From the NCBI RefSeq assembly GCF_900106805.1, contig NZ_FNNP01000001.1, positions 248,001 to 312,000 of the forward strand: a DNA stretch of 64,000 nt. Direction: 5' to 3'. Source of the stretch: Ruegeria halocynthiae. Lineage in GTDB: Bacteria > Pseudomonadota > Alphaproteobacteria > Rhodobacterales > Rhodobacteraceae. Below, in pieces: positions 45,133 to 52,212 of this stretch. Below the pieces are notes generated by a model, which saw only the letters and a program-made list of their open reading frames with translations, had not been told where the DNA came from and ran no database searches. A program made the translations under genes and the position numbers. The stretch's first letter is position 1. Each line of letters begins with the position of its first letter.

Positions 45133-45298
45133 TTTTACAGGGAAAGTGTGGCGGGACCACCAGTCAACCGTGCGGTTTGATTCCCGAGGACCTGTATGTA
45201 CAGGTGGGCGCCAGGTAATCAGGCCAGGACCTGAACAGAGCCAGCCCCCTCGGAATTGCTTAAGGCCACCAGAATGCTACCTATCACAAGAAGGGCAG

Positions 45299-45335
45299 AA
45301 CCCGCCACGCGCCTAAGTAGGGCGTGAGGCGGGTT
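45299..45335. terminator. Hairpin between convergent genes
   Basis: AACCCGCC (45299-45306) pairs with GGCGGGTT (45328-45335), and an inner CACGC/GCGTG helix extends the stem. It lies 12 bp from the end of the minus-strand SRPBCC gene. U-tracts are weak on both strands, so it may act as a bidirectional barrier. Confidence 0.5.
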
Positions 45336-50243: not shown

Positions 50244-50279
50244 CCTCCTGCCATTAATTGGATTTGGAGGATGAGTTCG

Positions 50280-51008
50280 ATGATTACGGTCCACACAAAC
50301 TCTGACGGCGCCCTGATTGAGGTGGAGCTTTCGGGTGAGGTGACAAGCGCAGATTATGCTGCGACGCTGGTGCCGGCAATTGAGGCCGCACTTGCAGATC
50401 ACGACTCGGTGCGCCTGCTGGCGATCGCAACGCCCGAGTTCAAGGGATACGATCTTGGCGCCGCATGGTCTGACACCAAGCTGGGGCTCAGCCACTGGCG
50501 TGGGTTTGACCGGATTGGTGTCGTTGCCGATCAGGGGTGGGTTCAAACCAGTATCCGTCTGGCGGCACCTATTCTTCCCTGTCCCGTTCAGGTTTTTGGA
50601 ATGGATGAGGTGGAAGAGGCTCGACGTTGGATACGTGAATCTCTGGGGGCGATCCACGTCACCGATCTGGGCGGTCCCTGCGTGCAGATCAGGCTTATGG
50701 GTAAACTGGATTCAGAGGAATATAAACAGGCGCAATCCGATCTCGATGCGCTCTTGCACGAGCGTGATGGATTTCGCCTGCTGATTGACCTGCGTGAATT
50801 CGATGGCTGGCAGGGTCTAACGGCGATGGCGGCGCATTTTCGGCTTGCGGCTGGCCATATCGGAATGCTTGATCGCGCCGCGATTGTCGGGGACAAGTCC
50901 TGGCAAAAGATGGCGCAGCGTATGGCCAGTCATGTTCTGGGAACCCGTACGCAATTCTTCCCGGCAGAGGAATATGACAACGCCAAAGCTTGGCTTTCCG
51001 CTGGCTAG
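50280..51008 (+). CDS. Double SpoIIAA-like (STAS-related) protein
   Basis: A 242-residue protein of two similar halves (about 1-115 and 125-242), each with a SpoIIAA-like pattern ending in a FGMDEVEEARRWI or FPAEEYDNAKAWL helix. Such proteins are often annotated SpoIIAA-like and resemble STAS anti-anti-sigma folds, but no conserved phosphorylatable Ser motif was identified. ATG 50280 was preferred to ATG 50271 because GGAGG lies at the proper distance. Confidence 0.8.
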   Translation: MITVHTNSDGALIEVELSGEVTSADYAATLVPAIEAALADHDSVRLLAIATPEFKGYDLGAAWSDTKLGLSHWRGFDRIGVVADQGWVQTSIRLAAPILPCPVQVFGMDEVEEARRWIRESLGAIHVTDLGGPCVQIRLMGKLDSEEYKQAQSDLDALLHERDGFRLLIDLREFDGWQGLTAMAAHFRLAAGHIGMLDRAAIVGDKSWQKMAQRMASHVLGTRTQFFPAEEYDNAKAWLSAG

Positions 51009-51110
51009 TGTTCGTGGCTTATTTCACCTGGAAACAATGGGTTGCGTGGCGTTGTTATTGTCTTTTTTATGGGTGACGCAACGGAATGTAATCTGCGATT
51101 GGCGTTTTTA

Positions 51111-51138
51111 TTGACTGATTGATCAAATAATTTAAAAC
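51111..51138 (+). promoter_or_regulatory. Candidate sigma-70 promoter for structured RNA
   Basis: TTGACT (51111-51116) and TAAAAC (51133-51138), spaced 16 bp, lie about 45 bp upstream of the hairpin element. Match to consensus is moderate, and the stretch is AT-rich between two GC-rich genes. Confidence 0.35.
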
Positions 51139-51183
51139 GTTCTCATCCCTCCCGCATTGTAAGGGATAGGGACTAAACTGTTC

Positions 51184-51270
51184 CGCGCCGCTGTGGGCTA
51201 CCACTCACTCAAACTACAATTCCCGGCTCTTCTACCCCCTCAGAGCCGGGAACTGATCCACGGCGGCGCG
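51184..51270. ncRNA. Candidate structured RNA (long double-helix hairpin)
   Basis: The outer arms CGCGCCGCTGTGG (51184-51196) and CCACGGCGGCGCG (51258-51270) pair over 13 bp with one G-U. Inside, TTCCCGGCTCT (51220-51230) and AGAGCCGGGAA (51242-51252) pair over 11 bp. The left internal loop is 23 nt and the right one 5 nt. Both helices are read on either strand; a plus-strand transcript is drawn from the promoter-like motif. It is not a known RNA family to me. It could be a small RNA, the leader of the short gene at 51290, or a protein-binding DNA structure. Confidence 0.55.
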
Positions 51271-51289
51271 TATGCAATTTGGAAGGGCC

Positions 51290-51490
51290 ATGACACTCCG
51301 CTCTGTCTTGAGGCGCATGATATTCAGGAAAAGCCTGAACCAGCCCGAAAACCCGAATAATTACGAAGAGGTTCGCCAGCGACCGACTTGCCCGGCCACC
51401 CAGACCGAGCTGGTGGAACTGTTTGGGGCAGAACTGCGGGAACATGATTTGCTGCGCGATGCAACACAATCCAGGACGCCCAAACCCTGA
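51290..51490 (+). CDS. Possible small protein downstream of the structured element
   Basis: A 66-residue open frame beginning ATG 51290 with GGAAGG nearby (short spacing). The sequence starts MTLRSVLRRMIFRKSLNQ, a basic helix-like segment, and ends acidic. It converges with the DUF1289 gene, 6 bp from its end. No family recognised. It might be real or a chance frame; the hairpin upstream could be its leader. Confidence 0.35.
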   Translation: MTLRSVLRRMIFRKSLNQPENPNNYEEVRQRPTCPATQTELVELFGAELREHDLLRDATQSRTPKP

Positions 51491-51496
51491 ACCTTG

Positions 51497-51730
51497 TCAG
51501 GAACCGTTCAGGCGCGCCGCACGTCCTCCGCGACGCTGGGTCAGGCGGGGCTTGCGATCCGGGAGCTCCTGCATGATCTCGGCCCGTTCACTGCTGTCCA
51601 TTCTGGACCAACGAGAGATCTCGTCAATCGTGCGAAAACAGCCGGTGCAAATTCGCTCGGTCGGGTGAACGACGCAGATCTGGACACAAGGGCTTTCCAC
51701 CTCGTCCCGGTTCCAAACCATATTCGTCAT
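51497..51730 (-). CDS. DUF1289 domain protein
   Basis: A small protein of 77 residues from ATG 51730 (a TTG at 51751 and ATG 51721 are alternatives). The DUF1289 cysteine pattern SPCVQICVVHP and RICTGCFRTIDEISRW is complete and suggests an iron-sulfur or metal-binding domain of about 55 residues. It follows ruvX on the minus strand, an order common in this group. Function unknown. Confidence 0.85.
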   Translation of the reverse strand: MTNMVWNRDEVESPCVQICVVHPTERICTGCFRTIDEISRWSRMDSSERAEIMQELPDRKPRLTQRRGGRAARLNGS

Positions 51731-51747
51731 AAGTGTTTTCCGATCCG

Positions 51748-52212
51748 TCAAATAAAGCGCAACCTATCCAGCGCCCCCTGCAGGATATAACCAGCCGCAA
51801 CGTGATCTATAACCTGTCCGCGACGCTTTCGTGTCGTATCCGCCTCAAGCAGGGCCTTTTCGGCGGCGACCGTGCTTAACCGTTCGTCCCAGAAGCCGAT
51901 CGGCAAATCGGTCAGCCGCATCAAATTTCGCGCAAAAGCACGGGTTGATTGGCATCTCGGGCCTTCGCTGCCATCCATATTGCGAGGCAGACCAAGAACA
52001 ATTCCGCCGATCTCACGGTCGGTCACGATTTCTATCAAACGGGCGGAATCCAGCGTAAATTTCTTGCGCCGGACTGTTTCCAGCGGGGTGGCGACGCCGC
52101 GCATCCGGTCCGATACCGCAACGCCGATGGTTTTTTCCCCCAGATCCAATCCCATGAGTGCTGATATGGGCTGCAATGCGGATGCAAATTCCTCGAACGC
52201 GTCATGGATCAT
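51748..52212 (-). CDS. ruvX: Putative Holliday junction resolvase RuvX (YqgF family)
   Basis: A 154-residue YqgF/RuvX nuclease. The conserved LMGLDLGEKTIGVAVSD contains the catalytic Asp (about residue 21), and GLPRNMDGSEGPRCQ and FWDERLSTVAAEKALLE supply the remaining motifs. It takes part in pre-16S rRNA maturation and perhaps recombination. It overlaps ccmI by 4 bp (ATGA). Confidence 0.94.
   Translation of the reverse strand: MIHDAFEEFASALQPISALMGLDLGEKTIGVAVSDRMRGVATPLETVRRKKFTLDSARLIEIVTDREIGGIVLGLPRNMDGSEGPRCQSTRAFARNLMRLTDLPIGFWDERLSTVAAEKALLEADTTRKRRGQVIDHVAAGYILQGALDRLRFI

Follow-up and report, generated by a model that had tools for sequence, protein, structure and literature searches.

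The gap between a STAS-like gene and a convergent DUF1289 gene of Ruegeria halocynthiae almost certainly harbors a genuine structured RNA, found, in the genomes searched, nearly exclusively within the genus Ruegeria and usually followed by the gene for a small protein. As the best reading of all the observations, with not quite an even chance of being right, we propose that the element is a dual-function RNA, consisting of a regulatory RNA and the message for the small protein, controlled through an inverted-repeat operator. About twenty Ruegeria species retain the RNA at this locus but have no protein gene there, and in these the RNA is better conserved.

The element was examined in the window, by which we mean the whole 64,000-nucleotide stretch of R. 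halocynthiae DNA analyzed here. An outer helix of 13 bp with one G-U pair and a perfect inner helix of 11 bp, together covering 87 bp, had been described in an earlier note on this DNA, and both were confirmed from the sequence and by folding. The structured core (51184-51270, plus strand; covered by covariance model R1), supported by fold, covariance model and covariation, is formed by the outer helix P1 (51184-51196 paired with 51258-51270) and the inner helix P2 (51220-51230 with 51242-51252). An unpaired loop, CCACTCACTC (51201-51210), is located between the 5' strands of the two helices and is the proposed contact site, and an apical loop CCCCCTC (51235-51241) is located within P2. Upstream of the core, on the same strand, a 5' hairpin with the stem ATCCCT/AGGGAT (51145-51167) was recognized from sequence and fold; the structure predicted for the window copy does not contain this hairpin, and has its pyrimidine strand paired with the Shine-Dalgarno region of the downstream gene. 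A 201-nt stretch including the element folded at -72 kcal/mol, compared with a mean of -51.8 (sd 4.1; z -4.96) for 200 shuffled sequences, none of which was as low.

By DNA search, the gap was detected in 22 of the 54 Ruegeria genomes, including that of the window, and tblastn indicated homologues of the STAS-like gene, the DUF1289 gene and ruvX at the flanks of all 22. The two window genes that mark this locus in tblastn are the gene at 50271-51008 on the plus strand, which we take to be STAS-like, and the convergent gene at 51497-51751 on the minus strand, for which the name DUF1289 is that given in the earlier note. Model R1, built from 22 copies, had matches in 47 of the 54 Ruegeria genomes, at 71 places in all and, in addition, as one opposite-strand shadow. 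A search with R1 over 295 genomes across the family gave matches in two Ruegeria genomes, one strong match in another genus (G280) and one weak match (G057), and a second member of the genus of G280 (G347) also carries the element. The weak match (L116, 27.9 bits) was taken as false and excluded from the copy counts, as it looked by eye like coding sequence and had no upstream repeat. Judged from these sequence searches, the RNA constitutes a new family that is, within their reach, almost confined to Ruegeria; the large searches were run with stricter filters, so that absence of the element elsewhere is not proven. Two types of locus were distinguished. Type A copies, 44 in number, lie in the STAS/DUF1289 gap, and type B comprises dispersed loci (29 copies, 27 in Ruegeria and two in the other genus). 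The sites of type B vary by clade, the largest clusters being those near a BCCT-type transporter, an epimerase/RraA-like cluster and an ABC-F-like gene, besides others, with the names read from translations. A tRNA gene was present within the stretch at three of the 20 element loci scanned, those of the type B copies L073, L081 and L099.

Covariation was analyzed on alignment A5, which contains 75 matches fitted to the R1 structure, that is, 73 copies (one damaged) and two opposite-strand shadows. In this alignment 94.4% of the cells were paired, and two-sided changes were observed in 16 of 19 pairs. Two-sided cells numbered 154 against 41 in shuffles, and none of 500 shuffles reached any of the five measures used. 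Pairing fell to 38-46% when the partners were slid by one to three columns. The same main helices were obtained by RNAalifold from MAFFT alignments of the first 22 copies and, separately, of 22 copies without the downstream open reading frame (ORF-less copies). Within the ORF-less set alone, 13 of 32 pairs covaried (22 copies), and two-sided changes were detected in eight of nine pairs of the hairpin at the position corresponding to the 5' hairpin (22 ORF-less relatives). Covariation of both helices in related genomes had been named in the earlier note as one of the points on which its proposal could be refuted; the pairings do covary, and the proposal of a new structured RNA is supported. The wobble pairs also indicate the strand. 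G-U or U-G cells amounted to 139 against 13 A-C or C-A cells in all A5 pairs except the outermost, and to 75 against nine in the 22 ORF-less copies alone. Since an RNA of the minus strand would give the reverse, the plus strand is taken as sense, and the element is, by this sequence criterion, an RNA of the plus strand.

The unpaired loop is conserved, not invariant. It was identical to CCACTCACTC in the first 22 type A copies, and its part CCACTCAC was found exactly in 59 of the 73 copies (22 of 23 ORF-less type A, 18 of 21 ORF-bearing type A and 19 of 29 type B). The apical CCCCTC was present in 39 of 44 type A copies versus only one of 29 type B copies. One ORF-less copy, L102, is a damaged element near a contig end; it is counted among the 23 ORF-less copies, in A5 and in the loop counts, and stands outside the identity, T-run and duplex sets, for which the intact ORF-less copies number 22.

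The view that no known RNA family fits was borne out, as no Rfam family was found over the element at threshold. With Rfam 15 at gathering threshold, the window and 20 element loci gave tRNAs only, and by E-value no family came near threshold for the window stretch and 11 type A loci. A long helix with a large internal loop is a feature of 6S RNA, and the element has the same general layout. Identity with 6S RNA (RF00013) was rejected, because the sole RF00013 match in the same genome is located elsewhere, at 45153-45304 of the window on the minus strand; this 6S RNA candidate is itself below threshold (30.1 bits against a gathering score of 46.4).

The gap had been regarded as otherwise empty, which is not the case. 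A gene for a small protein of 66 amino acids on the plus strand (51290-51490; MTLRSVLRRMIFRK...TQTELVELFGAELRE...) starts 19 nt past the end of the outer helix, preceded by a Shine-Dalgarno-like GGAAGGG (51281-51287) seen in the sequence. The small open frame that the earlier note had placed downstream is thus present, and is not incidental: it is a small-protein gene headed by the element, supported by homologues, by dN/dS and by a profile match of E 4.9e-15, the frame being itself one of the 37 rows in that profile. The frame was found after 50 of the 73 copies (all 29 of type B and 21 of 44 of type A), starting 13-54 nt past the model end, with a length of mostly 60-78 and up to 119 codons; by eye, a Shine-Dalgarno-like sequence precedes it in most copies. 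The small proteins have in common a basic N-terminal region (M-x-x-K-S-x-L-x-R) and, towards the C-terminus, the motif S-E-x-x-x-L-F-x-x-x-L. As dN/dS stayed under 1 (0.19-0.77) in each of the 18 pairs of close homologues compared, the small frame looks like a coding sequence under weak constraint. Scans of six small proteins against Pfam and NCBIfam gave no significant match (best E 0.11 and 0.10), nor did a PHROG scan of four of them (best E 0.057), and the best E in a search of solved structures with the small protein was 0.12. On the strength of such comparisons, the small-protein family is new and previously unnamed.

Of the 50 frames, 37 went into the protein profile; among the 13 left over, 12 score at least 45 bits and one is a weak frame (L107, 13.8 bits). 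When the lists of matches were compared, all 47 protein-profile matches in Ruegeria at E<=1e-9 were found to sit just downstream of an RNA match, and seven weaker Ruegeria matches (E 3.0e-6 to 0.085) were without one. Weaker protein matches were also obtained in sixteen other genomes of the family (best E 7.8e-6). Small proteins whose C-terminal motif resembles that of the family were noted in other genera (L219-L233). Many of the 14 matches inspected, from 13 of the sixteen genomes, are small frames of this kind, and no two-helix leader was seen by eye upstream of these 14. The suggestion of a leader in the earlier note agrees with the position of 50 of the 73 copies, where the small-protein gene is just downstream, and not with that of the 23 copies without a frame. 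In the ORF-bearing copies, the RNA is very probably the leader of the small gene.

For the promoter-like motif placed upstream in the same note, no match to the sigma-70 consensus was found, and what stands there is an inverted repeat, TTGACTGATTGATCAA (51111-51126, plus strand), overlapping a possible -35 sequence (TTGACT) and lying at a near-fixed distance in both copy types. From its sequence the repeat looks like an operator. The sequence TTGAYYGNNYRGTCAA was detected within two mismatches upstream of 22 of 23 ORF-less type A, 11 of 21 ORF-bearing type A and 19 of 29 type B copies, compared with 0.2-0.5% of mononucleotide-shuffled upstream stretches, and the median distance from the repeat to the model start was 75-77 nt for copies within three mismatches. 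With one mismatch at most, the pattern matched 36 places in the same genome against 14 for the control, some palindromes being counted on both strands; no regulator could be named from these other sites. Among the matched places is a palindrome TTTTATTGACTGGTCAATCAATAAAA; it has half sites resembling those of the element's operator and a different dyad, and is located at L185 1977-1992, upstream of a gene read as betB (betaine aldehyde dehydrogenase).

Retention of the RNA without its gene was then analyzed for type A. The frame is missing in 23 of the 44 type A copies (one of them the damaged L102), and the element and the DUF1289 match are separated by 12-36 nt at 22 loci without the frame and by 227-282 nt at 21 loci with it. 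An unrooted tree of the two flanking genes from 42 of the 44 type A loci broadly fits one change, with L083 unresolved and L010 on an artefactual long branch, and a single loss of the small-protein gene in type A appears likely. In the ORF-less copies (22 loci) the core averaged 0.76-0.85 identity; the corresponding values were 0.49 for fourfold sites in the flanking genes and 0.38-0.40 for the outermost flanks. For ORF-bearing copies the core identity was 0.45-0.80 against 0.46 at fourfold sites (19 type A copies, L107 and L010 being left out). By this identity measure, constraint on the RNA appears to be higher, not lower, where the gene is gone. Mainly because of this evolutionary evidence from core conservation, the RNA may work alone in the ORF-less copies, and it probably has a function independent of the frame. 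A run of four or more T after P1, which would account for a 3' end, was found in none of the 22 ORF-less copies, and this counts against the dual-function reading. Such runs were present in 6 of 21 ORF-bearing type A and 8 of 29 type B copies, with downstream background windows containing them at 3% and 8%, respectively.

A partner for the loop was sought through its complement. The complement of the type A loop, GTGAGTGAGTGG, was found in 52 of the 54 Ruegeria genomes, at 85 places; the reversed control was found at 23. Sixteen of the 85 are the elements themselves, and at least 46 of the other 69, as counted by reading, represent one locus, the gap between a helix-turn-helix-like gene and the thymidine kinase gene (tdk), both named from translations. 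A conserved RNA-like block is located in this gap (the hth-tdk block; L255 1440-1569, plus strand, corresponding to G000:C17:1505901-1506030) and was seen in at least 46 Ruegeria genomes; this second conserved block, upstream of tdk, may itself be regarded as a candidate RNA. It had no credible match in Rfam, and two-sided changes were detected in only three of its 36 predicted pairs. With a model of the block, an altered form was found among the 295 genomes in six other genera, in five of them beside a homologue of the helix-turn-helix gene and/or tdk, with one match per matched genome. Of the seven Ruegeria genomes in which no element was detected, five have the block all the same (G002, G020, G028, G029 and G037). 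At a few other intergenic-looking places (L239, L268 and L272), GTGAGTGAGTGG or GAGTGAGTGG follows just after hairpin-like sequences.

Duplexes between loop and block were calculated for 60 copies, those whose genome had the hth-tdk target sequence retrieved; targets were labelled at 28 places by pattern and at four by eye (G006, G020, G023 and G045). Because the locus had been found by means of the loop complement, the duplex energies are not independent evidence for pairing: they were -36.2 for ORF-less type A against -25.5 with shuffled loops, -35.6 against -27.5 for ORF-bearing type A, and -33.1 against -27.3 for type B, and at most one in 200 shuffles was as good in 10 of 19, 4 of 20 and 5 of 21 copies, respectively. 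Median lengths of contiguous pairing with the consensus target, with G-U pairs allowed and with Watson-Crick pairs only, were 17 and 12 for ORF-less type A, 12 and 11 for ORF-bearing type A, and 11 and 8 for type B; the value for the window copy was 11. The Mann-Whitney test on the Watson-Crick runs gave p 0.051 between ORF-less and ORF-bearing copies and 0.003 between ORF-bearing type A and type B, values that are optimistic as the copies are related. Co-evolution of loop and target was not detected in these energies, cognate duplexes being no stronger than non-cognate ones (-35.9 versus -36.3 for type A, -33.1 versus -33.3 for type B), and in G050 the loop is changed and the target is without a matching change. 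Both the pairing and the dual-function readings are weakened by the variation of the loop over all copies and by the presence of the block in five genomes lacking the element. Pairing of the loop with the hth-tdk block is a tentative proposal, which we consider possible and somewhat improbable.

According to the dual-function reading, a regulatory RNA of about 130-150 nt would be transcribed from its own promoter on the plus strand, under the inverted-repeat operator. The RNA would occupy the 5' part of a short message, which usually could also encode a protein of about 60-78 amino acids, and the same transcript would then be translated into the small protein. The loop CCACUCAC(UC), held open between P1 and P2, would act on a partner in trans, base pairing being the most likely means of contact. 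Where the type A protein gene is absent, in one group of Ruegeria species, strong selection would still act on the RNA. Computation established the structure and strand, the copies, their linkage to the small gene and their persistence without it; transcription, the promoter and the action in trans belong to the proposal. The partner, proposed with less assurance, might be the RNA-like block upstream of tdk, with CCACUCAC opposite GUGAGUGG in the hth-tdk RNA. An extended version of this scheme, speculative and unlikely as a whole, is a Ruegeria RNA-RNA circuit in which paralogous small-protein messages would pair by the CCACUCAC(UC) loop with the RNA upstream of the thymidine kinase gene, and one member, its gene lost, would have become an antisense RNA or a sponge with longer complementarity.

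The main rival is a leader that acts only in cis, controlling translation or termination of its own gene in response to a ligand, a protein (perhaps the small protein) or temperature, with the ORF-less copies as relics or reused elements. The position of 50 of the 73 copies, 13-54 nt from model end to start codon, speaks for such a leader, as do the T-runs after P1 in a minority of ORF-bearing copies above the type A and type B backgrounds and the predicted pairing of the upstream pyrimidine tract with the Shine-Dalgarno region in the window copy and some of type B (L073, L074, L076 and L103). General sequestration of the Shine-Dalgarno sequence was rejected, however, since folding with shuffled upstream tracts showed no general effect: the unpaired fraction was 0.44 versus 0.36 with the shuffled tract for type A (lower in 7 of 21) and 0.27 versus 0.33, a slight difference, for type B (lower in 16 of 29). 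Moreover, the ORF-less copies are better conserved than the ORF-bearing ones and show no decay, and we regard the purely cis-acting leader as rather unlikely. The roles might also be reversed, the hth-tdk RNA being a trans-acting sRNA and the small-protein messages its targets through the CCACUCAC loop, with the ORF-less copies as sponges or decoys. This would agree with the wider range of the hth-tdk model, which reaches six other genera compared with a single strong one for the element, and with the longest complementarity to the consensus target in ORF-less copies. Against it, the pairing does not covary, the block occurs without the element, and the two-sided changes in as few as 3 of 36 pairs weaken the status of the hth-tdk RNA itself; the reversed arrangement is distinctly unlikely.

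Since inverted repeats are common between convergent genes, where the first 22 type A copies reside, the element could be a bidirectional terminator, a DNA cruciform or a structure in the 3' untranslated region of the DUF1289 mRNA on the minus strand. The strand bias of the wobble pairs, the conserved unpaired loop and the occurrence of type B copies in other gene contexts all argue against these possibilities, and no terminator-like T-run was found in the window stretch when a Rho-independent terminator was looked for, nor any T-run in the 22 ORF-less copies. A plain inverted repeat or terminator was ruled out by the covariation and the wobble bias, the cruciform offered in the earlier note is disfavored by the same G-U excess, loop and lack of a T-run, and this group of explanations is very improbable. 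Alternatively, the conserved loop might be part of the coding sequence for a leader peptide upstream (read as M-R-x-V-A-A-G-x-H-S-R in many copies of type B), the RNA being a translation-coupled attenuator. In support, 21 of the 29 type B copies have an ATG no more than 6 nt ahead of the model start; none of the 44 type A copies has one there, and length changes seen by eye break the frame in L010, L028 and L077. A leader peptide reading through P1 was rejected, as start and frame are not kept across copies, and the attenuator is hardly credible.

The nearest working analogue of the proposed dual-function RNA, likened by organization and not by sequence comparison, is SgrS/SgrT of enteric bacteria, in which one transcript carries a base-pairing RNA and a small protein; for the Ruegeria element the action in trans is inferred only. 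The frame of SgrS is 5' of its pairing region, whereas that of the Ruegeria element is 3', and SgrS homologues were identified with a Rho-independent terminator, in contrast to the element, with a T-run in a minority of copies. Some species apparently lack a functional small protein of this system (PMC4021124). If the present reading is true, the element would offer an evolutionary series of the same RNA with and without the protein gene in related species, leading naturally from message to regulatory RNA, and would allow a direct inquiry into whether the RNA portion of such a message can act by itself. For Ruegeria, a genus on which studies of marine carbon and sulfur draw, two families would be gained, one of well-supported structured RNAs and one of small proteins. 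Rhodobacter sphaeroides and Ruegeria belong to the same order, Rhodobacterales. For Pos19 (RSs0019), a small coding RNA of R. sphaeroides, abolishing translation of the 150-nt frame leaves the effect on targets intact; Pos19 is reported from R. sphaeroides strains, was not found by its authors in other species, and has an RpoE promoter (PMC5036791). No description of the element was found in the literature consulted on roseobacter and Rhodobacterales sRNAs, dual-function RNAs and small proteins, and its locus is not named in the text consulted from an sRNA study of R. pomeroyi, in which the sRNA coordinates are placed in the supplement (PMC4809877). Two surveys of structured RNAs mention other Rhodobacterales motifs (PMC8632094; PMC2864571). 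Among these surveys, one describes the structured RNA candidates HRC-8-4 and uORFC-8-2 as exclusive to Rhodobacterales, and in its description they are tied to cco operons and cysS, unlike the element (PMC8632094).
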